Virus record (IMG/VR): IMGVR_UViG_3300042691_041259 | Location: 124,001 to 188,000 of that record | DNA: 64,000 nt | Source: a virus | Strand: one strand, 5' to 3' | Part shown: in pieces, positions 25,723 to 61,425 of the stretch | How positions within the stretch are numbered: the stretch's first letter is position 1 | Layout of the letters: each line of letters opens with the position of its first letter | The notes under the pieces: model-generated | Database searches by the model: none | Told to the model about the DNA's origin: nothing | What the model saw: only the letters and a program-made list of their open reading frames with translations | Position numbers and translations under genes: made by a program

Positions 25723-26070
25723 TTATTCAAAATCGGGCAAAAAGCCAAGACTATTCATACAGTCTTGATTAAAGTATGCCTGTTGTGATCTTGGATATTT
25801 GTTACTAAAAATAATTTTATCATCTTTAGCGACATCCAAAAAGTATACCCCTCCACCAATACCGGCTGTGATTGCCCATTCGGCGCCAGATCCACGTTCT
25901 TTTGCTACGTAAACATCCACTTGATCAAAGCGATTGTCATCGTCAAGCGTTTCTTCGCTTCTTTCCGCATCTCTGTCAAAGCTTATTCCACCAAGTCTTA
26001 ATTGTTTTTCAATATCAAAAGGTAAATGCGCTTCGCCAACAAACGCCTCAAACGTTTTTAAGTGCTTCAT
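25723..26070 (-). CDS. Small protein with T4-like capsid-targeting N-terminus (115 aa)
   Basis: A 115-residue protein that starts MKHLKTFEAFVGEA, close to the T4 capsid targeting sequence MKTYQEFIAEA; T4 protease cleaves such leaders after a (L/I)xE-type site, here possibly VGE. The remainder is acidic with a Gly-rich strand (AITAGIGGGVYFLDV). Its start overlaps the stop of the amidoligase gene as ATGA, so both may be made together. A head-internal protein, perhaps injected with DNA, is the best guess. The function of the mature part is unknown. Confidence 0.6.
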   Translation of the reverse strand: MKHLKTFEAFVGEAHLPFDIEKQLRLGGISFDRDAERSEETLDDDNRFDQVDVYVAKERGSGAEWAITAGIGGGVYFLDVAKDDKIIFSNKYPRSQQAYFNQDCMNSLGFLPDFE

Positions 26071-34397: not shown

Positions 34398-37247
34398 TTA
34401 TTTATCGGTGTTTGTAGGTGGTGCTTCTTGTGAAGAATTACCCAGAGATCCGGGTGTTTCAATGTTTATATTTGGACCATTTAGACCAGTGCTTTTTTCG
34501 TTTATGACATCATTTTGTTGAGGCGCCTTTTGATCTACCTTGCCAATTTCTGTATAGTTTGTAATTTCAAGGTCTTTTGAAGGCGTGCTCATAATAACCT
34601 TTCCAAGAGGCTGTTTTAAGATTCTTTCACCTTCTAGTTCTGTCTTACCAAGTTCTGGATTATCACTATTTACAGGAGCCCCCAACAGTATTACCGGATT
34701 AAGATATTTATCTATAGTTTCTGGCCCAACGAGCGGTTCTGTTCCAAGTATTTTTTCTGGAATAGAAGGCCCTTCAAGCGGAACTGCTCCAAAATCTGGA
34801 GTTAAACCAAAATTGCCTTCTCTTGCAATTTCAGGTGATGGCGGTGCTTCTAAATTAACGCTTGTTGGTCTAGTATTACTTAGAGTTGGAGCTGTGAGAT
34901 TCACGGGATCTGGTATAACATTAGAAACCGCCGGCGCTTCTAATTCAGTCTTGGAAACTACGCTCTTTGGAACTGGAGCCCCCGTAAGCTCAGCATTAGC
35001 TGGCATATCCTTACTTGGCTCGGCACCTTCCAGATCAACTTCATTTGCTGCCAGATTTTTTTGAATTTTAGGACCGTCCAAAGAAACATTGCCACCCGTT
35101 CCATCCATGCTAGCCCCACCGTCCTCAAATGAAACATTTGTTGCAGAAGCCGAAGCAACTGGTGGAGCATTTAGATCTACTACTTTTACTGTGATTGGCG
35201 TAGTTGGAACAGAAGTCAAATCCACATTAGTGACTTGATTTGGAGCAACTGGTGGAGCATTTAGATCTACTACTTTTACTGTGATTGGCGTAGTTGGAAC
35301 AGAAGTCAAATCCACATTAGTGACTTGATTTGGAGCAACTGGTGGAGCTTGCAGATCTACCGAATCGACCCTTCCAGTTTCTGATGGCGGAGCTTGTAAA
35401 TCTGTTTGGCCAGGCGGCGAATCTATAATTGCTGGACCTTGAAGATCAACAGCCGTTCCAGTTAAGCCATTGATTTGCGGTTCTACCAGAATAACGCTAG
35501 TTGAGGATGGCGGTCCTAATATAGGGCCTTCCAACGCTACTACTTTATCTGGTGAAGGGCTTATTAAAGGTTCTTCCAATGAAACAGTTGTAGAAGACGC
35601 TGAACCTGCTGGAGGAGCCGCCAACTCTACAGATCCTGCTGGACTATCACTTACGGCTGCCCCTTCAAAAGGAACATTAGTGGCAGTCGGCGCACCTACT
35701 GGAGCGGATTCAAATGGAACCGTTTCCGGAGCTGCTGGACTTGTAGAAGGCGCTATAAAAACTACAGTACCGCCACCTTCTGATATTGGAGGAGCCACTA
35801 AATCTTGTACCGCTGGCGACACCGGTCCTTCTGTTGTTGCTCCATTACTTTCCAGAGCAATATTTGTCAATAGGCTTTCAATAAATGGTGGAGCTTCTAA
35901 TTGAACTTGTTGCGCAATTGCTTGCGCAACTTCTGGAGGAAACGAATCCGCAAACGCGTTTCCAAGAAGAACTCCAGCAACTGCGCCTTGAACGGCATCG
36001 CTAAGCTGCGCGGTTGCAATAGTTGAAACGGTTCCAAGAAGTCCTCCAAGAATTCCGTTTAGCCGGGTATTTTCTTCTCTTAACTGGTTTTGATGTACAG
36101 TTTGTTGCGAGTTGTTAAACACCTCATTTTTTATACCCGATATGTAGCCAATTTCTCTTGAAGGTACACCTCTATCAGCAGGATCCCAAAAATATGATTC
36201 TACCCGATCTTGATTTCGATCAAGCAGCCCTTGTGTATCTTTCAATATCGCTCCCAGAAGACCATAAGTGTTTCTCTCACGAATAATAGGCGTCTTTATC
36301 ACAAATTTGTTTGTAGCTTCTTTATCGGGAAACTTTCCAAGAGCTCCAAAATATGTAGGTGCCTCTTCAAACATATCAAATTCACAGTGTGCAAATTCAA
36401 AAACTAAAAATGTAGCAAGCTCATCAAAATCCTTCATAAGAATAGGATAGTTGGAGTAGTTTCCGGGATCCCTTTGAAGAGTGCTAATAAGCGCATTACT
36501 TAAGCCTGACGCCCACTGTGTATTTGGGACTTGTGCGCTCACCGCACTTTGTATGCCTCTTTCCCCCAAGCCGGGTATGTCTATATTCCCAATTGGTGGA
36601 GCCTGTATTGGATTTTGAAAATTTGCAGCATCTTGAGTTATGTTAGGATCGTTAGTCGCAGGCAATGCATCCGCTGGTCTTTGCATGGAACGTATCTCAG
36701 TAATCACCAGTTCCATCTCAAACTTTCTTAAATTTTCAGGAAGCATCCACCGCATATACACCGAGTCATAACATGCTTTTCTGTATAAATCTATCAAATA
36801 AGTCATTTTTAAATCAATAGATTCAAGAGTTTCAAATGTCAATTTCTTGTCCTTTCCACGAAAACTTTCTGCTGGATTGATTTTCCAAATGTCTTCTAGA
36901 CCAGAAACTTTAGTAATAAACCAAGGCATTCTTTGAATGTTTTGAATACCTTCTATAAATTCTCTGAGCATTTGAGCTCGGGTATATTCTCCTATGTTTT
37001 TAAGGTACTTTATTGCTGAATCTGGATGATCCTCATTGTAAAATAAGCCGCCTGGCCAAGTATCAAAATCGCCCGTCACATCTTTATATGGAAGCTGATT
37101 AAGATCTTTGAATCTTACATAAAACCCAATGTAAGTAGGATCTTCATAATCCTTGAACTTATTTGGACGCGTAGTTGCGTACTCATTTCTCCAAGAAGGA
37201 GAACTGTATTGTAAGAACTTTCTGGTGACCGAGTCGGTAAATTGCAT
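34398..37247 (-). CDS. Baseplate/tail protein with long APP-type repeat region (949 aa)
   Basis: A 949-residue protein of two parts. Residues 1-about 390 look globular and carry a phrase (YDSVYMRWMLPENLRKFEME, near 158-177) of the kind seen in tail-tube-related baseplate proteins. Residues about 470-900 are an extended, low-complexity region with a 14-15-residue period of the form VDLxAPPxxxxxxxN and variants. Two adjacent 30-residue units are identical at the DNA level. Such Pro-rich repeats form flexible or rod-like linkers. The gene is flanked by the hub and spike genes, so a place in the baseplate centre is likely. The repeat function is unknown. Confidence 0.65.
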   Translation of the reverse strand: MQFTDSVTRKFLQYSSPSWRNEYATTRPNKFKDYEDPTYIGFYVRFKDLNQLPYKDVTGDFDTWPGGLFYNEDHPDSAIKYLKNIGEYTRAQMLREFIEGIQNIQRMPWFITKVSGLEDIWKINPAESFRGKDKKLTFETLESIDLKMTYLIDLYRKACYDSVYMRWMLPENLRKFEMELVITEIRSMQRPADALPATNDPNITQDAANFQNPIQAPPIGNIDIPGLGERGIQSAVSAQVPNTQWASGLSNALISTLQRDPGNYSNYPILMKDFDELATFLVFEFAHCEFDMFEEAPTYFGALGKFPDKEATNKFVIKTPIIRERNTYGLLGAILKDTQGLLDRNQDRVESYFWDPADRGVPSREIGYISGIKNEVFNNSQQTVHQNQLREENTRLNGILGGLLGTVSTIATAQLSDAVQGAVAGVLLGNAFADSFPPEVAQAIAQQVQLEAPPFIESLLTNIALESNGATTEGPVSPAVQDLVAPPISEGGGTVVFIAPSTSPAAPETVPFESAPVGAPTATNVPFEGAAVSDSPAGSVELAAPPAGSASSTTVSLEEPLISPSPDKVVALEGPILGPPSSTSVILVEPQINGLTGTAVDLQGPAIIDSPPGQTDLQAPPSETGRVDSVDLQAPPVAPNQVTNVDLTSVPTTPITVKVVDLNAPPVAPNQVTNVDLTSVPTTPITVKVVDLNAPPVASASATNVSFEDGGASMDGTGGNVSLDGPKIQKNLAANEVDLEGAEPSKDMPANAELTGAPVPKSVVSKTELEAPAVSNVIPDPVNLTAPTLSNTRPTSVNLEAPPSPEIAREGNFGLTPDFGAVPLEGPSIPEKILGTEPLVGPETIDKYLNPVILLGAPVNSDNPELGKTELEGERILKQPLGKVIMSTPSKDLEITNYTEIGKVDQKAPQQNDVINEKSTGLNGPNINIETPGSLGNSSQEAPPTNTDK
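34399..34406 (-). promoter_or_regulatory. Late-type box GATAAATA before spike gene
   Basis: Minus-strand GATAAATA ends six bases before the ATG at 34392 and overlaps the end of the upstream gene. It matches the recurring late-type box; at this distance a leader function cannot be excluded. Confidence 0.35.
35154..35348 (-). repeat. Perfect 90-bp tandem repeat (two copies plus 15 bp)
   Basis: The 90-base unit at 35154-35243 is repeated without any mismatch at 35244-35333, followed by 15 bases of a third copy. It lies in frame within the 949-residue protein and encodes two identical 30-residue blocks, each holding two of the protein's 14-15-residue motifs. The lack of any silent change points to a recent duplication. 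Confidence 0.95.
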
Positions 37248-41610: not shown

Positions 41611-41631
41611 ATATGAGCAATTACTTTTTTC

Positions 41632-41639
41632 TATATATC
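41632..41639 (-). promoter_or_regulatory. Late-type box GATATATA, minus side of divergent pair
   Basis: Minus-strand GATATATAGAAAAAA lies about 20 bases before the ATG at 41610. The same 14-base string occurs on the plus strand at 41664, so the two promoters are mirror images in the 77-base divergent gap. Confidence 0.6.
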
Positions 41640-41663: not shown

Positions 41664-41671
41664 GATATATA
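41664..41671 (+). promoter_or_regulatory. Late-type box GATATATA, plus side of divergent pair
   Basis: Plus-strand GATATATAGAAAAAA lies 16 bases before the ATG at 41688. It is identical over 14 bases to the minus-strand box at 41632-41639, which is the best evidence that the string is a functional signal. Confidence 0.6.
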
Positions 41672-41687
41672 GAAAAAATTCAATAGC

Positions 41688-41960
41688 ATGAGCACAAAAA
41701 CCTATAACGAGTTCTTCAAAAGAGTCAACGAGGAGGAGGAAGGCAGAATGTATCTTAATGATCTTCAGGAGATTTCTACCTTTGCCGCGCAAATTCGCGA
41801 AATGATCGCGCCAGAAGACGAATTGGAAGCTTGGGTCCAGGACAAAATCACGATTGCTCATCATAACATGGACGCCATTTTAGGTTACCTTAAGTCTCTT
41901 GAAAAGGGAGGGACTAATTCAACTTCTGTTGGCGGTTCTACCAATATGAATCTAGGCTAA
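41688..41960 (+). CDS. Small plus-strand protein, capsid-targeting-like start (90 aa)
   Basis: A 90-residue, mainly helical protein. The N-terminus MSTKTYNEFFKRVNEEE resembles the T4 capsid targeting sequence pattern (KTYxEF). The middle phrase DELEAWVQDKITIAHHNM looks like a conserved helix from small proteins of T4-like marine phages, as far as I recall. It is the first of two small genes in a plus-strand islet with its own late-type box, ending just before a basic 53-residue frame. Head-internal or assembly function is inferred. Confidence 0.65.
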   Translation: MSTKTYNEFFKRVNEEEEGRMYLNDLQEISTFAAQIREMIAPEDELEAWVQDKITIAHHNMDAILGYLKSLEKGGTNSTSVGGSTNMNLG

Positions 41961-41962
41961 CC

Positions 41963-42124
41963 ATGAAAAGATCCTTGCGATTTGGTAAAGATATGATGCC
42001 TAGGAAAGAGAAGCCAAAAACGGTGCTTTCTAAAAAGCCCAGGCCTTTTCGCAAAATGAAAAGAGTCTCCATTAAAATGGAGACTCTGAATTTGCAAAAG
42101 GATCTTGAGGATGACGCAGCTTAG
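41963..42124 (+). CDS. Small basic protein (53 aa)
   Basis: A 53-residue frame starts two bases after the stop of the 90-residue gene. It is very basic: 17 of 53 residues are Lys or Arg, with KKPRPFRKMKR in the middle, and it ends in an acidic EDDAA. Basic peptides of this size occur inside T4-like heads. The frame contains a perfect 11-bp inverted repeat that also works as a terminator for the convergent gene, so coding is less sure. Its last four bases overlap the end of the convergent 149-residue gene. Confidence 0.45.
   Translation: MKRSLRFGKDMMPRKEKPKTVLSKKPRPFRKMKRVSIKMETLNLQKDLEDDAA
42052..42087 (-). terminator. Probable terminator after 149-aa gene
   Basis: A perfect 11-bp stem (42062-42072 with 42077-42087) with a four-base loop lies about 35 bases beyond the stop of the minus-strand gene at 42121. 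On the minus strand it is followed by TTTTCATTTTG, an imperfect T tract. On the plus strand no T tract follows. Confidence 0.6.
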
Positions 42125-42570
42125 TATTCATCGGGAAGCTCATCTATCCATTTCAGTAGGCTGTTATCAGCAGTTCTGCAGTCTACAATATGAATCTTTT
42201 TCATGGATGGAAAGAACGTGACTCCATCAAAGAGCTCAAAGTAGTTTTCATCTTTATTCTCTTCAGTCAAAAAATACACGCTTTCGATATCCGTGCTTTC
42301 ATTTACGTAAAAGATTATGAATCTTATGATATCCTCATTTAGATTGGGATTGCAGTAAATGATTGAGTGGGCTCTTCTTGCTCTGGAAACCGCGCGGATT
42401 TGATTTTTGATCTCTTCGTTTACCAAAAAGCTGGTATAACTGTCGAGTTCCTGTTCACCATACCCCATCTGCTCAATGATTTCTGAAACAGAAATCACAT
42501 GCTGCTTTCTCATATTTAAGAAAGCTTTTTTTAGCTTTTCACGTGGTGCCCGAGTAATATAGAGTTTCAT
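42121..42570 (-). CDS. Hypothetical protein (149 aa)
   Basis: A 149-residue soluble protein of mixed helix and strand. The N-terminal half is helical and basic (PREKLKKAFLNMRKQH), then SVSEIIEQMGYGEQELDSY looks like a helix-turn-helix-sized segment. The C-terminal half has strands near SIIYCNPNLNEDIIRFIIFYVNES. I do not recognise the family. It is the last gene of a minus-strand run of small genes beginning near 44548, and is followed by a hairpin terminator. Confidence 0.6.
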   Translation of the reverse strand: MKLYITRAPREKLKKAFLNMRKQHVISVSEIIEQMGYGEQELDSYTSFLVNEEIKNQIRAVSRARRAHSIIYCNPNLNEDIIRFIIFYVNESTDIESVYFLTEENKDENYFELFDGVTFFPSMKKIHIVDCRTADNSLLKWIDELPDEY

Positions 42571-42591
42571 AAGAGGATTTTCTTAATATAT

Positions 42592-42924
42592 TCACCCTCT
42601 CATTTGAACCTTTCGTGCTTCTTCTTTTGCACGTTTTTTCTCGGCTTTTTTCTGCTCTACTTGACGATTGTTTTCCAATATGGCTTCAGCAGCTTCGCGT
42701 GTATATCCGCTGCTAACCAGGCTTTCAATTTGCTTTGAATGCAGTTCAGCCTCTTCGTTAATTCGAAGATTTTCCTGTTCCTGCTTTTTCATTAAGACAG
42801 CCTGCTTAACGTACTCAAGCTTTCTTCTTTTGATTTCTTCTTGCTGTTCGCGTGGAAGGACCTTTTCCATTTTGTGAAGGCCCATTTGCTTTTCGGTGAG
42901 TCTGCGCTCTTTTCTATTTTGCAT
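42592..42924 (-). CDS. Charged coiled-coil protein with UBA-like segment (110 aa)
   Basis: A 110-residue protein made of Lys, Glu, Arg and Gln-rich helices, almost certainly coiled coil. Residues about 63-86 (KQIESLVSSGYTREAAEAIL) resemble a three-helix UBA/TS-N-type fold core with the xxGY turn. It overlaps the start region of its upstream Nudix neighbour by 11 bases. Function is unknown; it could be a small scaffold or binding protein. Confidence 0.55.
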   Translation of the reverse strand: MQNRKERRLTEKQMGLHKMEKVLPREQQEEIKRRKLEYVKQAVLMKKQEQENLRINEEAELHSKQIESLVSSGYTREAAEAILENNRQVEQKKAEKKRAKEEARKVQMRG

Positions 42925-43450
42925 TTTTGAAAGATTTACGATACATAATGTTAAACAGTCTCAAAAAGGATCCTAGAACTAGGAGCTCATTAGTGAGCAC
43001 TGCCTCATTGACATCTGTCATTTTTAGTGTAGATTTGCTCTCTTGTGAAGAACCATCGGTTGACGGCGATCCTTGCTCCATACCGGTTACGTCCACTGCA
43101 AAAGTTGGAATTTCTCGATTGGAATCTTTGGAATCATGAAAGGTTCCTAGAAATAGCCATTTGTCAGGAGATTCACCGCGCATATCAAATCCGCCTTCTT
43201 CAAAAAGTTCTCTAACAGCGGTAGCGTACGCATCCTCATCAGAATCATCAATACTACCAGTGATCAGGGTATTTGCATAATTGCCTTCGCGCAATGTATT
43301 CCACTCATGAAGAATACCAATCTGCTCCACAATTCCATTTGCGTCTACGGTATATGGCAATACCGCTACAGAATTTCTCTTAATAAGCAATCCGTGCTTA
43401 TCTCCGGTATTGACAAAATCAAAAAACGGAGTTTCAAACAATACTTTCAT
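42914..43450 (-). CDS. Nudix hydrolase (178 aa)
   Basis: A 178-residue Nudix-family hydrolase, which cleaves nucleoside diphosphates linked to another moiety. The Nudix box lies at about residues 65-87, starting G65 and continuing EDAYATAVRELFEEGGF with the R-E-x-x-E-E core. One extra residue separates the leading Gly from the first Glu compared with the usual G-x5-E. Strands before it (HGLLIKRNSVAVLPYTV) fit the fold. Substrate may be a nucleotide sugar, modified nucleotide or RNA cap. It overlaps its neighbours by 11 and 17 bases. Confidence 0.85.
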   Translation of the reverse strand: MKVLFETPFFDFVNTGDKHGLLIKRNSVAVLPYTVDANGIVEQIGILHEWNTLREGNYANTLITGSIDDSDEDAYATAVRELFEEGGFDMRGESPDKWLFLGTFHDSKDSNREIPTFAVDVTGMEQGSPSTDGSSQESKSTLKMTDVNEAVLTNELLVLGSFLRLFNIMYRKSFKNAK

Positions 43451-43973
43451 TTGCTTTCTTTCTTTTCTTTGTTACCTCTTCTACTTTTTTGAAGAGAATT
43501 GCTTCCACTTGTTTCATTAGTACATTTTGATCCACGGAATCTACCAGGTATTCGCCAATTAAACGAGTGCCGTTTTCGTACGAATCATCAATTACTTTAA
43601 TAAGCTCATCGGAAGGCATACTTACTGTGATGGATATTTCCATCTTTACGTTTTTCTTTTTGCTTCTATTCAGCAGGTCAAAAACTGGATTTGATCCAGC
43701 CTGCTGTTGTGTTGCTACCGGTGATTCGGTTCTTTGAGTATGTCTCATTATTTGATTTGGTTGAGGATCCACAACAAATGCAGCGTTTGCTGCGCTTTCA
43801 ATTGGAACAATCCACTCTCCAACAAGTTGCATATTGCATTGAGAACCATCTTCAAATATGAGATACTCAATGTTATCGTCAATGATGGTTTCTCCTGTTG
43901 ACTTTATGATTTGTCCCATTCGTTCTCCTCGAACCCATTGGAACATTCCTGGTTTAGTTACGTCTTTAATCAT
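43434..43973 (-). CDS. Hypothetical protein (179 aa)
   Basis: A 179-residue protein with two parts. The first 60 residues form a small beta domain (FEDGSQCNMQLVGEWIVPIE); after a Gln/Pro linker, PVFDLLNRSKKKNVKMEI opens a second domain with helices ending in a basic KKVEEVTKKRKK tail. The pattern is like proteins of unknown role in T4-like phages. The frame is open to 44228, but that part overlaps the neighbouring gene and reads as out-of-frame composition; the ATG at 43973 lies just after the neighbour's stop and is preferred. Confidence 0.65.
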   Translation of the reverse strand: MIKDVTKPGMFQWVRGERMGQIIKSTGETIIDDNIEYLIFEDGSQCNMQLVGEWIVPIESAANAAFVVDPQPNQIMRHTQRTESPVATQQQAGSNPVFDLLNRSKKKNVKMEISITVSMPSDELIKVIDDSYENGTRLIGEYLVDSVDQNVLMKQVEAILFKKVEEVTKKRKKANESIV

Positions 43974-43992
43974 TTCAAGGTTATTTGAGGTC

Positions 43993-44322
43993 TTAGAGTT
44001 TGACCCATTTATTGTACTCGTTGAAGTATTCTCGTGTCCACTCGGCTTCGATTTTTTGGAAAATCCATCCCAGCATTTCTTCACGAAATCCTTCCAAGAA
44101 TTTTTCGATTTGTTCTTCATAGCTGCCTCCACTGGTTTGGTGGTTAAGTTCGGAAACAGAGACCCTAAAGGTATGTCGGGTTTCTTTAATTCTCCAGAAG
44201 AAAAATTGGGCCCCTCCGATGTCATCATATCCGTATTCTATTGTAAGGGGTTCCCAGCCATCAGGTTGCAGCGGGAATTCTCCTCGGTAATAAAGCTCAT
44301 CAAAATCTTTATGATAAGGCAT
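43993..44322 (-). CDS. Hypothetical aromatic-rich protein (109 aa)
   Basis: A 109-residue protein with many Trp, Tyr and Phe residues. Strands around WEPLTIEYGYDDIGGAQFFF are followed by a long helix with EEQIEKFLEGFREEMLGWIF. The ATG at 44322 is chosen because an upstream start at 44358 overlaps the previous gene further. I do not recognise the family; it is in a unit of small proteins. Confidence 0.55.
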   Translation of the reverse strand: MPYHKDFDELYYRGEFPLQPDGWEPLTIEYGYDDIGGAQFFFWRIKETRHTFRVSVSELNHQTSGGSYEEQIEKFLEGFREEMLGWIFQKIEAEWTREYFNEYNKWVKL

Positions 44323-44548
44323 TCTCTTGATCTTTAGCGTCTTTGGATTGGTATTCATCCTCGAGAGCCTGGACCAGCATTTCCATAACTTCGCCTCGGT
44401 TAGCGCTGTGGTTTTTGGCCATTGCTTCGAGATCTTGTCTCATCATTTTGATGTTGGCGAGACCTGTGTCTCCATTGTTCAACTGGACAATGATACAATC
44501 CCAATCTTCATAGGATTTGTTGATGTAGTTTTTCTTTTCGGTACTCAT
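44309..44548 (-). CDS. Small helical protein (79 aa)
   Basis: A 79-residue acidic, mostly helical protein (residues about 30-60 ANIKMMRQDLEAMAKNHS onward). It is the first gene of the small-gene unit and has both promoter types upstream, an AAAAC/GAATATAA pair and an overlapping TATAAATA box. It overlaps the next gene by 14 bases. Function is unknown. Confidence 0.55.
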   Translation of the reverse strand: MSTEKKNYINKSYEDWDCIIVQLNNGDTGLANIKMMRQDLEAMAKNHSANRGEVMEMLVQALEDEYQSKDAKDQENALS

Positions 44549-44566
44549 TGTAATATATGTTTGCTA

Positions 44567-44596
44567 TATTTATATTCGCTCATAGAAAAAAGTTTT
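44567..44596 (-). promoter_or_regulatory. Overlapping early- and late-type promoter boxes
   Basis: On the minus strand AAAAC (44592-44596) is followed by 14 bases and GAATATAA (44570-44577); the TATAAATA late-type box (44567-44574) overlaps it. This arrangement would let the 79-residue gene unit be read in both phases. Confidence 0.55.
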
Positions 44597-44600
44597 TTGC

Positions 44601-44641
44601 AAAAAAAGAAAGCCCCCGATGATAGCGAGTCCCGGGGGCTT
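44601..44641 (-). terminator. Strong Rho-independent terminator
   Basis: Minus-strand stem of at least 8 bp, AAGCCCCC with GGGGGCTT (44634-44641 and 44610-44617), followed by TTCTTTTTTT. It lies about 40 bases after the stop of the 381-residue gene. Confidence 0.85.
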
Positions 44642-44642
44642 A

Positions 44643-44675
44643 GTAGTTTTGCAACTACAACGGTCCTAAGTCCGT
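44643..44675 (-). other. Two small hairpins upstream of the terminator
   Basis: Between the 381-residue gene and its terminator, the minus-strand RNA can form ACGG/CCGT (4 bp) and GTAGTT-GCAA-AACTAC, a 6-bp stem with a GNRA tetraloop (44643-44658). They could be a 3' stability element. Confidence 0.4.
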
Positions 44676-44681
44676 ATATTT

Positions 44682-45827
44682 TTATTTATTGACTTTCTTC
44701 CACTTCTCAAGTCCACGAATAACACCGTTATTGTCTTGAGCCCAGATTCCGAATCTCGCATTTTCGAAACCAAAAGTTCCTCCTTGTCCGGATCTCATTG
44801 AAACGTATAAAGCTGGCCAATACGGATCCGATTGCTTAAGTTCTAGACTACCACCTGTGATAGCAGGGTTATACATTGCGTGCCCGGTAGGCTTTATGGA
44901 ATACCCGTTTTCAAAAGGCTCCCCAGCAGGAATAAATTCAATTGCACCTTGCATGACAACCTGAACGTTATCAGCGGACCACTCTTTATTGCTAGTGGTT
45001 GCTAGGTTTCCAAAGATTGCACGAATTCCAAGATCTATGTGTTCTGGCGGTATTACCACAGCAAATTCGTTCTCTGGCCAATTCTTAGCGTTGCTCCCAA
45101 ATTTTTCCATGATTGCGTTTAAGAAATCTCTCACAAATGGATGATCTGCGCATTGGCTAATCCCGCCATACTGCTGAAAGTCTTTTGCACTCTTTCCATC
45201 TTTATGAGATATGTAGATTGAAGGATCGCCTTTGATTTCCAATATAAAGTCCGCCTTTGGAACGCCTGACACTTTATCAGCCCCTTCCATTTCAACTTCA
45301 CGCAGACCAGATGAATTATACATTTCGCCTTTTACAACAAGCCTAACAGATTCATTAGGTCCCTTGAGCTTGTCAAATTGACTTTGAATGTTTTGAAGAG
45401 CAATCGTCTCTTTTTTAAGTGAGTCTTTAGGTGACCAAAAAATTGCTTCAGGCTTGTAACCCATAAGGAATGCCACAAAGCAGATTGCTTTTTCGAATTT
45501 GTTTGTTGCGTCCTCTCCGTTTTTCAAGGCTTCCATTTCAGCGTTTAAATCTTTTCCGCTTTTTGGAAATTCTTCTAGACGGCTACCATCTTTACTGCTT
45601 CTAATTTTGATAGTTGTCGGGTAAACGGTTACGTAGGCTTCACCACTCAAAACGGCTTTTGCTCCTGGGGAAGAGAAATTCTCCCCAGTTACAATAACCT
45701 TTTCGATGTTCTTGGTATCGCCGCTATACTTGAAGTCTTCGAAAGATCTTCTCAAGGTCTCGCCGTCAACACCTTCGTTTAGAATTGATTCATTAAGAAT
45801 AAAACTTTTGTAGTCTAGCAAGCCCAT
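44682..45827 (-). CDS. Protein with capsid-targeting-like start, possible nuclease fold (381 aa)
   Basis: A 381-residue protein. The start, MGLLDYKSFILNES, fits the capsid-targeting pattern with an LNE cleavage-type site at residues 11-13, and a second LNE at 16-18. Residues about 189-224 hold PKADFILEIKG, then ISHKDG and QQYGGIS; the D-x3-E-x-K spacing and the later SHK make me think of a restriction-endonuclease-like fold, but I am not sure. It ends at a strong terminator. Together these suggest a head-internal, injected protein, perhaps acting on host DNA. That function is inference. Confidence 0.6.
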   Translation of the reverse strand: MGLLDYKSFILNESILNEGVDGETLRRSFEDFKYSGDTKNIEKVIVTGENFSSPGAKAVLSGEAYVTVYPTTIKIRSSKDGSRLEEFPKSGKDLNAEMEALKNGEDATNKFEKAICFVAFLMGYKPEAIFWSPKDSLKKETIALQNIQSQFDKLKGPNESVRLVVKGEMYNSSGLREVEMEGADKVSGVPKADFILEIKGDPSIYISHKDGKSAKDFQQYGGISQCADHPFVRDFLNAIMEKFGSNAKNWPENEFAVVIPPEHIDLGIRAIFGNLATTSNKEWSADNVQVVMQGAIEFIPAGEPFENGYSIKPTGHAMYNPAITGGSLELKQSDPYWPALYVSMRSGQGGTFGFENARFGIWAQDNNGVIRGLEKWKKVNK

Positions 45828-45890
45828 TCTGTGTACTTTTCTTTTTCTTTTTATGGTTATTTTATCACAATATTGTTAATGACTCTATGA

Positions 45891-46109
45891 TCACTCTATG
45901 ATTAACTCCGGTCCGCCGATGTACTCGGTAATACCGGATTTTGCAACGGAACGAATTTCATAGTCAAAAGTGGTTCCGCGGAAGCGGTCACGCACCTTTG
46001 CTTGGGATTCCTCAATTGTTTCTGCATTTACGAGGTATGTCTCAGTAACGCTACGGAGTTTTCCGTCGTCCTCATAACTTGTCTTTACTCTTACTGTCCA
46101 ATGTGCCAT
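45891..46109 (-). CDS. Small beta-rich protein (72 aa)
   Basis: A 72-residue protein with paired strands at the start (HWTVRVKTSYEDDGKLRSVT) and a helix in ETIEESQAKVRDRF. It resembles a small ferredoxin-like or ssDNA-binding-size fold but has no motif to name. A late-type box lies about 24 bases upstream of its ATG, and it precedes the 381-residue gene. Confidence 0.5.
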   Translation of the reverse strand: MAHWTVRVKTSYEDDGKLRSVTETYLVNAETIEESQAKVRDRFRGTTFDYEIRSVAKSGITEYIGGPELIIE

Positions 46110-46132
46110 ATATGATTGTTTTAGTGTTGCTA

Positions 46133-46140
46133 TATTTATC
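46133..46140 (-). promoter_or_regulatory. Late-type box GATAAATA before 72-aa gene
   Basis: Minus-strand GATAAATATAGCA lies 23 bases before the ATG at 46109 and overlaps the stop of the PAP2-family gene. The TATAGCA extension is shared with the box before the 79-residue gene. Confidence 0.5.
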
Positions 46141-47941
46141 CTTCCAATAAGTTGTTTTCAAAAATGATTTTGCAAATTTCTCGTGAAATCTCTGTATCTG
46201 ACGGATAGTGAATTCCAGTTAATTCGCGGGTGTTGGCAATTCTTTCTCCTAGCGCTTTCAGTTCTACTGTGGCATCCGGATACTTTCTCGAGTAGTATTC
46301 GCTCATCATAAATCCAGCAAGCGCATGACCACTAGGATACGAAGCATGATTTGCATCAGTACTCAAAAGTGGGCGGATCGGCATATTGTAATACCAGCTC
46401 AACTGAAATGGTCTGGGACGATTGATTGAGTCTTTGAGAAAATAAAGAGTTGGGTCGGTTTGGCCATCTGCTTTAAAAAAGTTTTCCATGGTTTCTACAT
46501 ATCCGTACTCCGCTAGGAGATCAATAAATGATTGAGCCAAATTTGAAAAGTCTTCTACATATTTTGCAAATGAGAGTTCTTCTTGAGTTGCATTTTTCAT
46601 TTTCTCAATAAGAATTTCCATATCTTTGCGTGTAATCTCGCTGTCATTAGCAGGCGCCTCTGCACATATCTTTTCTGCAATGCCTTTTTCAATGAACCAA
46701 TTCTTAATGCGGTCATCAGGCCGTTGCGCTAACAAAAATTGTTCAGCCGCGCAATTTCCGTATCGCACCTCATTAATGTTAATAGGCGCGTCAACTACAC
46801 CATATTGCGCTTCGTAGACTTCTGTTTTCTTTTTCTTACCTTTATCAGGGCCGCCTTCATGCGGTATCATACCCTGTGCAATAAGAGAAGTTTTTACGCC
46901 AAAAGGGATTTCTTTTCCGGCTTCATATTCCGCCTTATACTTTTGTAGAGTCTCCTCTTTGTACGGTGATTCTTTCTCGTTAACAAATTCTTCAAAAGTC
47001 TGAAAGGATTCCCATGATCTCATAATTTGTTTTCCAGACCTCTCAAAGTTTCCGGAAAAAGAGAGAACATAACCTTCCGGCGTTTCAATAAGCCGGTATT
47101 TTTCTCGAGTGTTTAGTTTTTTGAACGCCTTTTCAATGTATGCCAAGTAGAGCTTTCCTCTGCGCGAGTCTCTGCCAGCCTGACCTTCTTTATCGGTCTT
47201 AGGGTTCATCTGAAATTCAGCAATTCGTACCAGACCGGGAATGCTTATTATCGTGTTAATAAAGTCCAGTGCGCATTCAGTAACAGTAGCCAACACGCGG
47301 TATTGTTCTCCCAGATTAGTCTCGGGTTCTACTTTGGCGCTTCTCGCCGATTCCACGTTAAAAGACGATCCTAGCCACATTGAAAAACTTTTGAAATCGG
47401 GCTGCTTTCGTCCAAACTGAAAGTTCCTGCCAATCAGCCCTTCAATCTTCATGTAGTAGGTCTCTCCGGTTTTGTCCGATTTGAAAGAGTACTCTACTGG
47501 CGATACTCGGGTATACATTTCATCAGTAGATCCTTGAAGCGGATTGTCTTTGGCTTTATCGCATTCCTCCTGTACCCAGCTCTTCACATTTTTATTTACT
47601 GTCCACTTGAAAGGATTTGTAGAGTCGCCGATCTCATTGAGAACACCTTCGCTCTCTAGGAGGTCTTCTCGACCCAATTGTCGATACACTTCTTTACGAG
47701 TCTTCTCCATTTTTTCAGCATAATCAGGATCATCATTCCGATTAAACACAATCTGCTGAGTAAGACTGCCACTAATCTTCTTTAAATCCTTGTCTCGAGT
47801 TTTGATAAGCCATGCTGCAAGGTCCTTGATACTCAGGTCACGAAAGCGCCCTTCTGCATCCGGCGCATCGCTGTCTTTCCACTTGGGAGCGCCTGCTGGC
47901 TTTTTTTCATTCAAAAAGTCGTTAAAAGATACGTGTTTCAT
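46136..47941 (-). CDS. PAP2/vanadium-haloperoxidase family protein, capsid-targeting-like start (601 aa)
   Basis: A 601-residue protein. The N-terminus MKHVSFNDFLNEKKP matches the T4 capsid targeting pattern with LNE as a cleavage-type site. The C-terminal 110 residues contain the full PAP2/haloperoxidase signature: K503-x6-R510-P511 (KDSINRPRP), PSGH (536-539) and R572-x5-H578-x3-D582. Family members are acid phosphatases, lipid phosphatases or vanadium haloperoxidases. The central part (about 120-330) is another domain with a GKLYLAYIEKAFKKL helix that I cannot name. No membrane segments are apparent, which favours a soluble enzyme. It is the largest of a run of genes with capsid-targeting-like starts. 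Confidence 0.78.
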   Translation of the reverse strand: MKHVSFNDFLNEKKPAGAPKWKDSDAPDAEGRFRDLSIKDLAAWLIKTRDKDLKKISGSLTQQIVFNRNDDPDYAEKMEKTRKEVYRQLGREDLLESEGVLNEIGDSTNPFKWTVNKNVKSWVQEECDKAKDNPLQGSTDEMYTRVSPVEYSFKSDKTGETYYMKIEGLIGRNFQFGRKQPDFKSFSMWLGSSFNVESARSAKVEPETNLGEQYRVLATVTECALDFINTIISIPGLVRIAEFQMNPKTDKEGQAGRDSRRGKLYLAYIEKAFKKLNTREKYRLIETPEGYVLSFSGNFERSGKQIMRSWESFQTFEEFVNEKESPYKEETLQKYKAEYEAGKEIPFGVKTSLIAQGMIPHEGGPDKGKKKKTEVYEAQYGVVDAPININEVRYGNCAAEQFLLAQRPDDRIKNWFIEKGIAEKICAEAPANDSEITRKDMEILIEKMKNATQEELSFAKYVEDFSNLAQSFIDLLAEYGYVETMENFFKADGQTDPTLYFLKDSINRPRPFQLSWYYNMPIRPLLSTDANHASYPSGHALAGFMMSEYYSRKYPDATVELKALGERIANTRELTGIHYPSDTEISREICKIIFENNLLEG

Positions 47942-47947
47942 GAAATT

Positions 47948-48325
47948 TTATTGAGGATCTTTGTTTTTACATTGGCAGCCTTCTGTGCAACCACATTCTT
48001 CTGAAATAGCAACCTCCTCAGAGGGAACCTGCGGAGTTTCCACCACAGGTTCCTCGTTCTTTGGAGAAGAAAGAGCCTCTTTGATTCCTTTTTTCATATC
48101 GGAGAATCGATCAATGGATGACAATCCTAGGCAACCGAAAGCCAGGAGAGCCACCGCATCAATGATGTGTTCGTCCGGAGCTTTTTCCAGGAAGAGACAT
48201 ACACAGAGGCTTGCACCGCAAGCTACTCCTACAATTCTCTTGGATGATGGAAGTTTATTGGAATCTTCAAAGATACCAAAGATCCAATTTTTGATAGAAT
48301 CAAAAAACTTAATCAAGGCTTTCAT
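47948..48325 (-). CDS. Two-TM membrane protein, holin candidate (125 aa)
   Basis: A 125-residue protein. A short amphipathic start (MKALIKFFDSIKNWIFGIF) is followed by two likely membrane segments (about 31-47 and 57-69), then a charged, Pro-rich tail ending in a Cys cluster (CGCTEGCQCK). Size and topology suit a holin, and a lytic transglycosylase lies about 4 kb upstream in the same orientation. The Cys tail is unusual and may bind metal. It overlaps the next gene by ATGA. Alternative: membrane protein of other use. Confidence 0.55.
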   Translation of the reverse strand: MKALIKFFDSIKNWIFGIFEDSNKLPSSKRIVGVACGASLCVCLFLEKAPDEHIIDAVALLAFGCLGLSSIDRFSDMKKGIKEALSSPKNEEPVVETPQVPSEEVAISEECGCTEGCQCKNKDPQ

Positions 48326-48672
48326 TTCTTTGCAGTCTTTTTATCAACTAATCTGTAAATGGTGTATTCTTCTTGACGAGCTTGATTCCGTGCAACTAAA
48401 TCTCCGGTAGGCATTATTGTGTATTCCACAGCCTCTCCAAAGTCGTTAATGCAATAGTAACGATGGTTTCGTTTTTCTACCACATTTTTTGGAATATCAA
48501 ACCCGTCCTCCCATTTTACTAGAGTAGAGTCTCCGCAAACCCACATTCCTTTATCGGGAAGAGTTCTGCGTTTAATGCCATCCCAATCAATCACTTGATT
48601 GTAGTACAGCGTGTCTTGTCCCAGCGAAAAAAGTGTCATCGCCATGAACGTCATTGAAAGAATAATTTTCAT
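48322..48672 (-). CDS. Secreted small protein with signal peptide (116 aa)
   Basis: A 116-residue protein that starts with a clear signal peptide (MKIILSMTFMAMTLFSLGQD, cleavage probably after LG-like residues near 18). The mature part is a compact beta-type domain with two Cys pairs (WVCGDS, YYCIND). It has no lipobox. The first 86 bases lie inside the 3' end of the nucleotidyltransferase gene in a different frame. A lysis or periplasmic role is possible; no family is recognised. Confidence 0.55.
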   Translation of the reverse strand: MKIILSMTFMAMTLFSLGQDTLYYNQVIDWDGIKRRTLPDKGMWVCGDSTLVKWEDGFDIPKNVVEKRNHRYYCINDFGEAVEYTIMPTGDLVARNQARQEEYTIYRLVDKKTAKK

Positions 48673-49744
48673 TGAGTAATTGTTTAATTTTTGATGTGTA
48701 ATCCGCTACCAGTGCTTTGACCTTATCGGCCGCTGCCTGCGCTGCGGGTGTCGTAATCTTATCAAATTTACTGCTACTTGCAGCAGTTTCCATCTTTTCA
48801 ATATAGCGGTCTTTTACCGCGTTTAGTAAAGCCGTTGCGCTATTATATTTCAAAACTGTGCCAAATTCGCCAAGCTGTTCCAGAGTCTGTGCTACACCTA
48901 CAATGCCATCGCAAAGATCCTCAAATCTAGGATTTGCTGGATCAATACCTTTCCAGGAAGAGAGTTTACTGCTTTCCTTGTATGGTTTATCAGTTCCGCT
49001 TTGTTCCCAAAAGAACTTGGCAATATCATGCATAAAGGTAGAGATATTGGCTGATAGAAGTTTATCTTCTACGCCAGCCCGCTTGCTATAGGCCACCATT
49101 GAGGTTCCTGCAAACTTGGCCCGTACTCCACGAGGCTGTATGCTTAATTCCAAGACTTCTCCAAATGAGGAGTATAGGTTTCCCAGAACAAATCCTTTTA
49201 CGTTTCGGATTGGAGTCATTCTAAAAATTGCCCACTCTTTATAGCCGCTATGCGTAACTACCAAATCAACTTGTACCCAACCTTCACCTTCAGGTGTTTC
49301 CACCTGCATAATAAGCTTTAGCGAACTTGGGTCAGAGACTGATACAGTTTCTTCATAATCAATGAACGCGTAGGACTTATTTTTTAAAAATTGCAACAGC
49401 TCTTTGTTATAGAGTTTTACTGATGCAATCTCATTAGAACGCTCGTCCTTTCCATCAAGTTCCAGCGTAGGATATGCTACCATGAAGTCAATATCTCCAT
49501 AAACCTTGTCAGGCTGCGAGACGATATCATCTTCATACCAGGTTCCACTGCCGATAGGTTTGCTAAATTCCAGCGGAGGCAATTCAATGCCTTTACAGTG
49601 AATTGCAAACTCTTTCCCTATGACGTTAAGTTTCTTTACGCCATCCGCGATGATCTTGGGTTTGATGAGGGTGGACTGAGTTTTTGTGCTCGCCCATCCA
49701 CCCTCAACTAGCCATTGCTCAAAAAGTTTGACGTAATTGGCCAT
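48587..49744 (-). CDS. Nucleotidyltransferase-like protein, capsid-targeting-like start (385 aa)
   Basis: A 385-residue protein. It starts MANYVKLFEQWLVEGG, the F-x3-L-x-E pattern of head-targeted proteins with LVE as a cleavage-type site. Residues about 65-90 have the nucleotidyltransferase pattern GSGTWYEDD then VYGDIDFMVA, with D84 and D86; a third Asp is likely in WVQVDLVV near 155. Such proteins transfer NMP groups to proteins, RNA or antibiotics. The remaining residues are helical. Its 3' end overlaps the secreted-protein gene by 86 bases. Confidence 0.7.
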   Translation of the reverse strand: MANYVKLFEQWLVEGGWASTKTQSTLIKPKIIADGVKKLNVIGKEFAIHCKGIELPPLEFSKPIGSGTWYEDDIVSQPDKVYGDIDFMVAYPTLELDGKDERSNEIASVKLYNKELLQFLKNKSYAFIDYEETVSVSDPSSLKLIMQVETPEGEGWVQVDLVVTHSGYKEWAIFRMTPIRNVKGFVLGNLYSSFGEVLELSIQPRGVRAKFAGTSMVAYSKRAGVEDKLLSANISTFMHDIAKFFWEQSGTDKPYKESSKLSSWKGIDPANPRFEDLCDGIVGVAQTLEQLGEFGTVLKYNSATALLNAVKDRYIEKMETAASSSKFDKITTPAAQAAADKVKALVADYTSKIKQLLNENYSFNDVHGDDTFFAGTRHAVLQSSD

Positions 49745-49751
49745 CTCAATT

Positions 49752-50303
49752 TTATTTTTCTTCAGCTACTACTACAGCAACCACCGGTTCTTCTGCGGGA
49801 GCAGATTGATCAACTACATTCTCTTGACCGTAAACATCCTGATTCACTTGGTGAGTGATTGGAACATTACGGAGAACTTCTGAACCCAACATATTATTAT
49901 AGCTTGGGTACAGAGCAAAATTTTCTGAAAGGAAGCTTTCAAAGTCCATCACAGACTCATTGGTCTTCTTTTTCTCAGCAATCTTATAGGTTTTGCCTTT
50001 AAATTCAAATTCCTCTTTTCCTTCCAGTTTAGCCTTGTGAAGAGCACTGTGGAATGCGCTTTCAGAAACCTCGTCCTCTTCAAGTTCATCCTCAACATCG
50101 TCGTTGGTATCATCTGCTTGGTCAGACGCTGGAGTATCGCTATCTTCAGCCTTTTCGGGTTCTGCTTCCGGTTCATCAGCAGTATCTTCAGCAGGTGTAT
50201 CTGTATCTGCTGCTGGAGCATTCTTGGTTTCTGGCTCTCTTTCAGAATCCGCCGCGGGATTCTCATCAGCCATGAATTCGTCGAACTTTTTTACGTGTTT
50301 CAT
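49752..50303 (-). CDS. Acidic protein with capsid-targeting-like start (183 aa)
   Basis: A 183-residue protein. It begins MKHVKKFDEFMADENP and then runs for 65 residues of Asp, Glu, Ala, Pro and Thr, strongly acidic, as in phage scaffold or core proteins. At about 84-107 (FHSALHKAKLEGKEEFEFKG) lies a conserved-looking helix-strand motif that recurs in core-type proteins I recall. A second motif of targeting type, MDFESFLSEN, occurs at about 119-128. Its place before other capsid-targeting-like genes suggests a prohead core or internal protein. Confidence 0.6.
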   Translation of the reverse strand: MKHVKKFDEFMADENPAADSEREPETKNAPAADTDTPAEDTADEPEAEPEKAEDSDTPASDQADDTNDDVEDELEEDEVSESAFHSALHKAKLEGKEEFEFKGKTYKIAEKKKTNESVMDFESFLSENFALYPSYNNMLGSEVLRNVPITHQVNQDVYGQENVVDQSAPAEEPVVAVVVAEEK

Positions 50304-50335
50304 TTATGTGTCTTTTTTTAGAAAATTACCTAGAC

Positions 50336-50343
50336 TATATATC
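50336..50343 (-). promoter_or_regulatory. Late-type box GATATATA before acidic core-like gene
   Basis: Minus-strand GATATATA lies about 32 bases before the ATG at 50303 and directly after a terminator, so it can head the transcript through the head-targeted genes down to the terminator at 44601. Confidence 0.55.
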
Positions 50344-59415: not shown

Positions 59416-60223
59416 TCAGATATTGTGAGGCCACCCATGAAAAAGAACACCCTTCTGGGTTCTCTTTAATACGCTCTTCCGTCCAGTCCTCAATTTTTTT
59501 ATGGTTGACAGATGTATCATAGAGATGTACACTGTAGGTGATTGGCTTGATTAGTTCCGGCAAAAACTTATTGTAGATCTTCTCGGACTCAGTATAGCGA
59601 TACGGATAGAATGCTTCCCATGGAACTATTTTATAGTGCCCTTGTAGGCTTTCCCGAGCTACAAGAGTGCTGTGCATTTTAACACTATGCTCATCCCAGA
59701 AAGTATCCTTTCCTTTGCTGCGGAACCATGTATATTCTTGGTACCACTCCTGAAGGTACTTGGAATTTGGTGGGCTAATAAGAACTCCGTTTCCGTATTT
59801 CCAGTCTCGGGATCCTAGTTTTCCAACTACAAACTTTTCCTCAGCAAGGAGATCATCAAAAGACTTGATAGTAATAGTATCAAAATCCGAGTAGACTCCG
59901 CCTTGTTCATTAAGTATCTGGATCCGAAATACATCAGAGGCATGTGCTGGATGCACCAATGGGTTTCCAAAAACTTCTGTTGGCGGATCTACTAAGTGAA
60001 CTTTTACGTAGTCTGAGACTCGTTCCCAATACTTACCAGTAGGCTGTTCATTGGTGTAGAAGTTGATTTCGTAATCAGGATTGTGTTTATGAAATGACTT
60101 GGCAGCCAAGAATCTCATCAAATCCCATTCTGCGTTTCGTTTGCTTTTGTCATTGTAAAAGTAGATAAAATGCATCTTCTTATACAATGGGTTAGGTTCT
60201 TTTGTTTCAAAAAGCTTCATCAA
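59408..60223 (-). CDS. GT32-like glycosyltransferase (271 aa)
   Basis: A 271-residue glycosyltransferase of GT-A type. The conserved block ASDVFRIQILNEQGGVYSDF (about 95-114) with D113-F-D115 as the metal-binding DxD is that of the GT32/capsular-sugar family. Its start overlaps the upstream methyltransferase stop by ATGA and its end overlaps the EEP gene by eight bases, so these are one unit. The acceptor is unknown; modified cytosine is an attractive idea given neighbours, but polysaccharide or protein acceptors cannot be excluded. Confidence 0.82.
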   Translation of the reverse strand: MMKLFETKEPNPLYKKMHFIYFYNDKSKRNAEWDLMRFLAAKSFHKHNPDYEINFYTNEQPTGKYWERVSDYVKVHLVDPPTEVFGNPLVHPAHASDVFRIQILNEQGGVYSDFDTITIKSFDDLLAEEKFVVGKLGSRDWKYGNGVLISPPNSKYLQEWYQEYTWFRSKGKDTFWDEHSVKMHSTLVARESLQGHYKIVPWEAFYPYRYTESEKIYNKFLPELIKPITYSVHLYDTSVNHKKIEDWTEERIKENPEGCSFSWVASQYLND

Positions 60224-61425
60224 AAGAGTATTTTAGACGTTTGTTTGATCGGAGTATCTATCCGCTGTGCAATGTTGTCCTGTTTGAAGTAATCAACACC
60301 GCTGTCCTGCAAATGTCCAAAAAGCCATTTTATCACTTGCCCAGTCCAATCAGTTGCGGTATTTACCGGAACGTTTTGCGAGATTTGCTGATACCCTTCA
60401 TGCGCCAAATTAAAGTTGCCGTCTATTCCCATGAGCCACATAAGTTCTTGTACGTTCATCCATCGGTGTTCGGTTGGATGCGTTGACAATTGTAAAGTTC
60501 TGCCTACAACCGCGGTAATATCATTTGCATTAATGTGCGGAGTGCTATCCCATACTCTTTTGCGAGTTGCACGTTCTAATAATGCCAAGTATTTCTTGGA
60601 CTTTGCATCCTCCCTATTTGCAAGGTAATCCATCGCCTTAGTAATTCTTTCCTGTTCACGGAAAATGTAAATAAGAATAGAACGGTTTCCTTCCAAGGCA
60701 GCTTCATGTGGAGTTTTCTTTTCTTCCTGCGTAAGCCACTGGTACAGCGGATCTTCGGTCAGTGGATCCTTCATAAAGTACTTGTCGGTATACGGTCCAG
60801 CTGGTGTTCTTTCAATGTATGTTTCCAGCGGTAGCGTAATTCGGTTGCACCACTCCAGGATCGGAGCAGATTCAGCCTTCCAAAAGAAATAAAAAGATCG
60901 TACCCTGTTTTGCGGAATCCCATGCAGCGCTGTGGAAGTCTTGATCATACTGAAAGAATACCCGTGCTTCTTTCCAATTTCATAAAGTTTGTCCGCAACT
61001 TTCTTTCCTAATGCCGTATAGAGTCCAGGCGCGTTTTCACCCCAGAGAACTTTTGGCTTTACATTCTCGAGAACATACTCGGAAGACTTATACATCCATT
61101 CGTTTTGGATTGCATCCGCTCCACGAGCCTTTTCGCTACCTTCCTTTGTTGATGAATTCAATGCAGATAACCCTGCGCATGGACACAGACTTACTACCAT
61201 GTCTACGCCTTCAATTTCCTCATTAAAGGGACGGTCCCAAGCAATTCCGCTGTCTTCTATCAGGCCGTAAGGAATTTCTGGAAAGTTTGCCCGACAGTGA
61301 CTGTCATTGCTTTGGAAAGCATCGTAAGAGAGTATATACTCTGGATCTTTACCGGTCGCCCGTTTGGCTCCCAGGACCATCCCTCCAATGAGAGGTACTA
61401 TAGCTGCATATTTAAAAGTTTCCAT
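60220..61425 (-). CDS. DNA cytosine-5 methyltransferase-like protein A (401 aa)
   Basis: A 401-residue C5-type methyltransferase. Motif I is PLIGGMVLG (11-19), motif IV is CPCAGLS (81-87) with the catalytic C83, motif VI is GENAPGL (129-135), motif VIII is HGIPQNRVRSFYF (168-180) and motif X is NVPVNTATDW near 353-362. The variable recognition region lies between VIII and X. It is one base from its paralogue and coupled to the GT32-like gene. It would act on cytosine in DNA; recognition sequence is unknown. The catalytic residues look intact, so it is not an obviously dead enzyme. Confidence 0.9.
   Translation of the reverse strand: METFKYAAIVPLIGGMVLGAKRATGKDPEYILSYDAFQSNDSHCRANFPEIPYGLIEDSGIAWDRPFNEEIEGVDMVVSLCPCAGLSALNSSTKEGSEKARGADAIQNEWMYKSSEYVLENVKPKVLWGENAPGLYTALGKKVADKLYEIGKKHGYSFSMIKTSTALHGIPQNRVRSFYFFWKAESAPILEWCNRITLPLETYIERTPAGPYTDKYFMKDPLTEDPLYQWLTQEEKKTPHEAALEGNRSILIYIFREQERITKAMDYLANREDAKSKKYLALLERATRKRVWDSTPHINANDITAVVGRTLQLSTHPTEHRWMNVQELMWLMGIDGNFNLAHEGYQQISQNVPVNTATDWTGQVIKWLFGHLQDSGVDYFKQDNIAQRIDTPIKQTSKILF

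Follow-up and report, generated by a model that had tools for sequence, protein, structure and literature searches.

A leader resembling the T4 capsid targeting sequence marks a putative expanded set of internal proteins in a large phage that probably infects Bacteroidota

About 20 genes of a large T4-like phage, represented by the 202,505-base virus record IMGVR_UViG_3300042691_041259, encode proteins with a short leader that resembles the capsid targeting sequence of the T4 internal proteins. These leaders are very probably T4-type propeptides that direct an expanded set of internal proteins to the prohead core, and, by analogy, ejection into the host is the likely purpose of the set. This suggests that the phage injects a whole kit of proteins along with its DNA. 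The window considered here comprises bases 124001-188000 of the record (64,000 nucleotides); coordinates are those of the window unless marked as record, L-numbers denote fetched loci, and G-numbers denote related or control records. Sequence-level reading covered 124,005 bases of the record, and the contig terminates inside the gene for the gp23 major capsid protein (PF07068, E=4e-12, above the cut-off). Among annotated phages, the nearest relatives of a baseplate-like protein (22888-24588) are those of an uncultured phage of 462 kb (39% identity) and of the Prevotella Lak phages (37-39% identity), and a relative of the protease-scaffold protein of this clade sits on a contig of 254 kb assigned to the metagenome-assembled genome of an uncultured Bacteroidetes. 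The Lak relatives, together with the placement of the protease-scaffold relative, make a host among the Bacteroidota probable.

The preliminary description of this stretch had grouped five protein starts between 41688 and 50303, and a sixth at 26070, by a common motif and had suggested that they may form a T4-like internal cargo. All six are ATG codons of open frames with the leaders given there. The grouping holds for the six leaders, with the qualification that the gene at 41688 lies on the strand opposite to its neighbors and fits only a looser form of the motif. The proposed set proved too small, since the contig carries around 20 such genes, mostly outside the window. The tagged genes of the window, with motifs internal to two of them, are as follows.

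49752..50303, minus strand: open frame with ATG start for a 183-residue acidic protein with the leader MKHVKKFDEFMADE
49923..49943, minus strand: FESFLSE, a further leader-like motif within the 50303 protein (residues 121-127)
48587..49744, minus strand: open frame with ATG start for a 385-residue protein with the leader MANYVKLFEQWLVE
46136..47941, minus strand: 601-residue multidomain protein with the leader MKHVSFNDFLNE and a PAP2-like phosphatase at the C-terminus
47633..47644, minus strand: VLNE, residues 100-103 of the 601-residue protein, between its first and second domains
46976..46996, minus strand: internal leader FEEFVNE, residues 316-322 of the 601-residue protein
44682..45827, minus strand: open frame with ATG start for a 381-residue protein with the leader MGLLDYKSFILNE and a phrog_13937 body
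41688..41960, plus strand: 90-residue protein with the variant leader MSTKTYNEFFKRVNE, on the strand opposite to its neighbors
25723..26070, minus strand: open frame with ATG start for a 115-residue protein with the leader MKHLKTFEAFVGE

The match to T4 extends to the individual functional positions. Mutagenesis of IPIII assigned targeting mainly to residues 4 and 7 and processing to residues 8 and 10, and an Asp at position 10 blocked processing and not targeting (PMC9026906). In MKTYQEFIAE, as translated from T4 DNA, residues 4, 7, 8, and 10 are Y, F, I, and E. Matching residues are found in the 18 strict leaders of the contig, which form N-terminal tags of 10-19 residues. The T4 positions and spacing are kept in leaders such as MKHVKTFENFLNE, MKHVKLYEQFIFE, and MANYVKLFEQWLVE, whereas in the 50303, 45827, and 41688 proteins the aromatic pair is kept and the Glu is displaced by one or more residues. 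Thus, the conservation of the four T4-mapped residues with T4 spacing supports the original interpretation of the motif as a T4-type capsid targeting sequence. The T4 proteins IPI, IPII, IPIII, and Alt likewise combine an N-terminal tag of ~10-15 residues, bearing aromatics at both targeting positions and, at the processing positions, a hydrophobic residue and Glu, with unrelated mature parts; a gp23-family capsid protein is present on this contig and a gp21-family protease in its relatives. However, T4 is described as having four internal proteins, which co-purify with the scaffold protein gp22 (PMC9026906), as opposed to the ~20 tagged genes found here, which include enzyme-like bodies and in which tags also occur within fused proteins.

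The leader is far more frequent at protein starts than elsewhere. Its strict core, [FYW]xx[FW][LIVMFA]x(1-2)E, starts within the first nine residues of 5 of the 56 hand-listed genes of the window, against 0.33 expected from the motif rate in the interior of the same proteins, and a looser form that includes 41688 is seen in 9 of the 56 against 1.4 expected. These expressions were composed after the leaders had been seen, and tests independent of them therefore weigh more. When MK-type leaders were sought with a DNA pattern over the whole 202.5-kb record, 11 matches were obtained as against one for the reversed pattern. All 11 lie on the coding strand with lengths divisible by three; eight of them are at record 77.8-97.4 kb, outside the window. 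Of 129 open reading frames (ORFs) in the 124,005 bases, 14 have a strict leader at the first Met, whereas 7 internal Mets out of 612 have one (Fisher p = 4.9e-7). If the range is extended to the first 45 residues, 20 ORFs contain a strict leader, or 18 after two candidates (record 166468 and 202020) were removed by hand as not leader-like. Looser candidates occur at window 41688 and at record 77623, 94859, 97959, and 198454; that at 97959, a ferritin-like protein by Pfam, has a weak leader and stands outside the strict 18. Of 967 distinct ORFs in all fetched loci, 50 have the core leader at the first Met, and it is seen at 44 of 4,624 internal Mets; a match in L063 at 6277, a thiamine pyrophosphate enzyme, was taken as chance.

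Related phages show the same bias. In 41 related or control records, 59 matches were found as against nine for the reversed pattern; the 59 include four that are out of frame, and they are not independent, some records being near copies of one another. By the pattern alone, some relatives have 8 to ~20 tagged genes. The 462-kb LR756500 gave 22 matches versus two reversed, at least one of the 22 containing an in-frame stop, with a slightly different leader consensus (MKYIxxYxxFxxE). In T4, the pattern recovered ipII, ipIII, and gene 61.1, with no reversed match, and a similar script, applied to a 20-kb stretch of T4, recovered ipII and ipIII along with two other frames and missed ipI, whose leader is looser. 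A pattern with wider spacing gave one match versus no reversed match in PAU and in PTm1, one versus two in phiM12, none of either in PA5oct, and four versus none in cyanophage S-T4 (two of 30 bases, and two of 38 bases, which is out of frame). Lak-A1 yielded seven matches versus one reversed; however, five of the seven have lengths not divisible by three, and the Lak phages are consequently not counted as leader-bearing.

The tag behaves as a module that is independent of the body to which it is attached. No pair among the bodies of the 18 strict-leader genes is similar at E<=0.01, and MSLLDY/MGLLDY-type leaders are found on several bodies that fall into different clusters; leaders like that of 45827 stand before bodies not clustering with it in MSLLDYKNF (L059), MGLLDYKSW (L018), MGLLDYESF (L024), and MSLLNYQKF (L007). 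In 20 leaders of this phage, 989 comparisons of codons for the same residue revealed 421 differences, with 481 expected from codon usage, which places the conservation at the level of the peptide rather than that of the DNA. The C-terminus of the 601-residue protein matches PF01569 (E=5e-6, 0.5 bit below the curated cut-off). In both G005 and L018, the two ends of this protein align to distinct genes, each with a leader of its own. As its internal FEEFVNE lies at the point where the separate PAP2 gene of G005 starts with its own leader, this motif is, going by the alignment, the second gene's leader surviving after fusion. The VLNE between its first and second domains is a possible further protease site.

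A second style of leader is seen in G002, where the FxxFLxE pattern has no match. The G002 homologue of the PAP2 protein begins MKIRLSELRKLIREEV, in the style of other G002 leaders, and the pattern M-x(5-7)-L-x-x-[IVL]-[IV]-x-E-[EC], which is too strict to match this PAP2 leader, gave six matches in G002 and none in eight other phages. Some of the following genes adjoin the G002 protease and gp23.

L056 10089-10508: G002-style leader gene
L056 10545-10865: G002-style leader gene
L056 16267-16584: G002-style leader gene
L057 4290-4754: G002-style leader gene
L003 7755-8693: G002-style leader gene

Relatives, as judged from these comparisons, split, fuse, and swap leaders, and the leader is modular.

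The machinery that would act on such tags is found in relatives. No gp21-type (S77) protease, the search for which had been suggested at the outset, was found on the contig. It was recovered in two of the seven related records, G002 and G005, both of which also have gp23; the other five are contigs of 43-92 kb. It is encoded directly upstream of gp23 in G005 and ~4 kb from it in G002, and over 101 residues the truncated gp23 end of this phage shares 88% identity with its G005 counterpart. Unlike in T4, the protease of G005 and its relatives is joined in a single ORF to a scaffold-like tail: the whole G005 ORF corresponds to gp21 plus gp22 of other T4-like phages (~25% identity). The tails of this ORF and of seven relatives are built of [YF]xx[YH][LIV]xE units, closely approaching the tag and mostly recurring at intervals of exactly 14 residues; a single break of 43 residues occurs in L063, and LR756500 has fewer units. 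A structure model renders the repeats as long helices, with a predicted local distance difference test (pLDDT) score under 50 over residues 272-455. When a position weight matrix derived from 16 leaders of this phage (from an earlier matrix, loci L039 and L048 had been removed by hand) was run over the parts beyond residue 60 of 1,188 proteins, scaffold ORFs made up 28% of the top 150 windows versus 4.4% of all windows, a value equaled by 3 of 200 column-permuted matrices. Putative cleavage motifs also occur in the capsid protein: gp23 has SLNE, NLNE, or AINE near residues 45-55 in 14 of the 16 clade contigs with a printed N-terminus, the exceptions being L081 (PVFE) and L103 (ELYE); the 15 N-termini other than that of L103 represent 12 distinct sequences. 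The T4 propeptide ends in this region of gp23.

Small proteins at L094 15220-15906, on this contig, and L074 4-210 resemble the N-terminal arm of the gp23 of their own lineage (NTPGMGNVTPA...GSGD and PGSIGSMG...GSGD, respectively, followed by a lysine run). The former is a DUF3008 protein with an internal leader, MKHVKLYEAYIEE, after the arm-like segment. Conserved ORFs of ~200-230 residues downstream of gp23 (L066, L068, L072, L073, L074, L076, and L077) have an internal leader-like motif near residue 105, such as FRFEEFVNEN.

From the tag, its modularity, its conservation as a peptide, its resemblance to scaffold repeats, and the protease of relatives, all established at the level of sequence, we infer targeting, cleavage, ejection, and the existence of such a protease in this phage. 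The two aromatics of each leader would bring an unrelated protein into the prohead core during scaffold assembly; the S77 (gp21-type) protease would then cut after the Glu, releasing the mature protein within the head to travel with the DNA and, probably, to be ejected together with it. Fused proteins with internal tags would be cut into separate mature domains. A bolder proposal, less likely than not, regards the tag as a scaffold repeat that has become detached and the core of this clade as a chain of 14-residue aromatic-x-x-aromatic/His-hydrophobic-x-Glu units, with the types of unit specific to each lineage. If so, any protein that starts with one unit would enter the core and be cut out by the same protease, the tag would serve as an address code specific to the lineage, and an exchangeable injected proteome would be formed by tens of genes, some of them for fused polyproteins. 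The occurrence of Tyr or His rather than Phe at one place of the repeat somewhat lowered our estimate of this proposal.

The bodies themselves offer some clues to the nature of the putative cargo. In this phage, Pfam identifies a cytidylyltransferase-like protein (record 98544) and, below the cut-off, an R2K ATP-grasp protein (record 97378) among the tagged products. In relatives, Pfam matches of tagged proteins comprise LicD (G005), a PNK 3'-phosphatase, leucine-rich repeats and a DUF2201 metallopeptidase-VWA protein (LR756500), and lysozyme and CHAP hydrolases (G039; L110 611-1435 and L112 854-1480). Fourteen of 20 proteins searched had no Pfam match at E<=0.01, and many tagged bodies vary between phages.

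Within the window, the 50303 protein has orthologues that retain the leader (G005, in L059 at 15622-16212, and L008 6166-6786), with its internal FESFLSE appearing as FESFLAE and FGDFISE in relatives. The leader of the 49744 protein is retained in three orthologues of 75-77% identity. Its body (GSGTWYEDD...GDIDF) possibly adopts a nucleotidyltransferase fold; the best Foldseek matches of its model were cGAS-like proteins, Pol mu, and OAS (template modeling scores ~0.2), and the low confidence of the model (pLDDT 48.7) makes this a mere hint. It had no match at E<=1 among PDB sequences. In phages S-T4 and phiM12, the 45827 body has distant relatives whose N-termini lack a leader. Neither 45827 nor 26070 yielded relatives when viral contigs were scanned by pattern, an orthologue of the latter being found later in the fetched stretches; in G005 (L107) the 26070 orthologue has the leader MKHVKTFESFLNEASLPFD, and a protein similar to it by eye (L120) has MKHIKTFENFLNEGHLDFK. 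The gene for 26070 is overlapped by an amidoligase-like gene (26067-27470; phrog_7469 E=3e-5, Pfam match below cut-off). The 41688 protein matched none of the annotated phages and has tblastn relatives at 36 viral-contig loci. All 13 close relatives listed (L018-L029 and L059) have an [FY]xx[FY] leader, and none of the 24 more distant loci listed, some of them cut or near copies, has a leader-like N-terminus.

Several observations count against the interpretation of the leaders as core-targeting propeptides of injected proteins. The T4 internal proteins have been described as basic (PMC9026906), whereas all six tagged proteins of the window are net acidic, from -7 to -33 (K+R-D-E, leader included) with 50303 at the extreme; T4 Alt stands outside this comparison. 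Neither protease nor scaffold is encoded on the contig; its end inside gp23 would explain this and makes the missing protease uninformative. The likeness between leader and scaffold is partial, since at the place of the leaders' Phe/Trp the 77 tail units have Tyr 53 times, His 16 times, and Phe once, and the matrix test was only moderately significant. Some internal Mets of the contig also fit the motif, and gene 61.1 of T4 lies outside the internal-protein genes. PA5oct, which has the protease family and notes on mass spectrometry, gave no leader match, indicating that the S77 protease does not imply leaders. The lysozyme and CHAP proteins of G039 could be ordinary lysis enzymes; unless they are entry enzymes carried by the virion, they speak against the cargo interpretation. 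We found no virion proteomics for the clade, nor a cultured phage combining many leaders with such data.

In one alternative, the tags do target the core, and most of the proteins serve in the structure or assembly of the prohead core, from which they exit or in which they are degraded, rather than as injected cargo. A tagged gene ~3.5 kb from gp23 (record 198747), the wide distribution of the 41688 domain in phages, the resemblance of scaffold repeats to the motif, the slower head assembly of T4 on loss of IPIII (PMC9026906), and the acidity of the six window proteins are all in keeping with this. Nevertheless, we regard it as unlikely, because several bodies match enzymes (cytidylyltransferase-like, LicD, PNK 3'-phosphatase, and, weakly, R2K ATP-grasp) and many vary between phages. 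It is quite improbable that the leader addresses another place, such as a compartment for phage replication, a pathway of degradation, or a partner in the host, with the likeness to T4 and scaffold being convergence. Although the destination of the leader is here predicted from sequence, PA5oct has the same protease family without the leader, and the scaffold repeats deviate at one aromatic place, convergence would have to account for targeting and processing residues at the exact T4 spacing, the Glu at the cut position, and a nearly identical motif in the scaffold repeats.

T4-like phages reportedly exchange internal-protein genes, and a signal for translation or recombination located where genes begin, conserved as DNA or RNA, might give rise to a similar pattern. 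The ~30 identical bases common to two L095 leaders would fit such a signal; the codon variation close to that predicted from codon usage and the presence of the motif inside proteins leave it a very slim chance. Finally, the post hoc composition of the expressions and the existence of internal chance matches might suggest a fortuitous likeness of short N-termini, which is refuted by pattern counts far above those of the reversed pattern in the record, the 41 related or control records, and LR756500.

Interpreted as core-targeting propeptides, the leaders find partial counterparts in other phages. The giant phage SPN3US, with its ejection proteins, also has a large internal protein set and a protease that cuts after a Glu motif, and its gp53 and gp54 have identical N-termini (PMC5694885, PMC9026906); unlike the leaders described here, several of its propeptides exceed 100 residues, and only that of gp45 is of T4 length (PMC5694885). 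In P1, an N-terminal stretch of DarB suffices to send a reporter to the capsid, but this concerns one protein and 30 residues in a phage apparently lacking a separate scaffold (PMC9024508). The aquatic "moraphages" and the freshwater bS21 phages are comparable by description, being large phages that encode a prohead protease and are predicted to infect Bacteroidota (PMC12619734, PMC9723584). Possible packaging of bS21 was suggested in passing (PMC9723584), and a text search counted no occurrence of "capsid targeting" in either paper. Titles and abstract openings, with subscription journals mostly uncovered, yielded no description of such a leader set in Bacteroidota phages or huge phages. A single motif would mark an internal-protein set several times that of T4 in uncultured large phages probably infecting Bacteroidota, and would furnish a sequence rule by which candidate injected proteins, many of unknown function, can be listed straight from genomes; some of these may block first-line host defenses. 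The scaffold repeats further hint at the binding partner of the tag, which lineage-specific tags render testable by swapping.

Some of the tagged genes share an upstream element with structural genes. The box GATATATAG occurs five times in the window versus 0.31 expected, a count attained in none of 100 shuffles.

50335..50343, minus strand: GATATATAG box, 32-40 bp upstream of 50303
41664..41672, plus strand: GATATATAG box upstream of 41688
41631-41639, minus strand: divergent copy of GATATATAG upstream of 41610
10482: GATATATAG box upstream of 10452
28746: GATATATAG box upstream of 28726

As these boxes precede structural and leader genes, GATATATAG is possibly a late promoter element of this phage, and late expression of the leader genes alongside the tail genes would fit. 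Elsewhere in the window, two adjacent proteins that are alike by eye (60220-61425 and 61427-62668) resemble cytosine-C5 DNA methyltransferases in having a PCAG motif, and a 949-residue protein (34398-37247) contains VDLxAPP-type repeat units in its C-terminal half.

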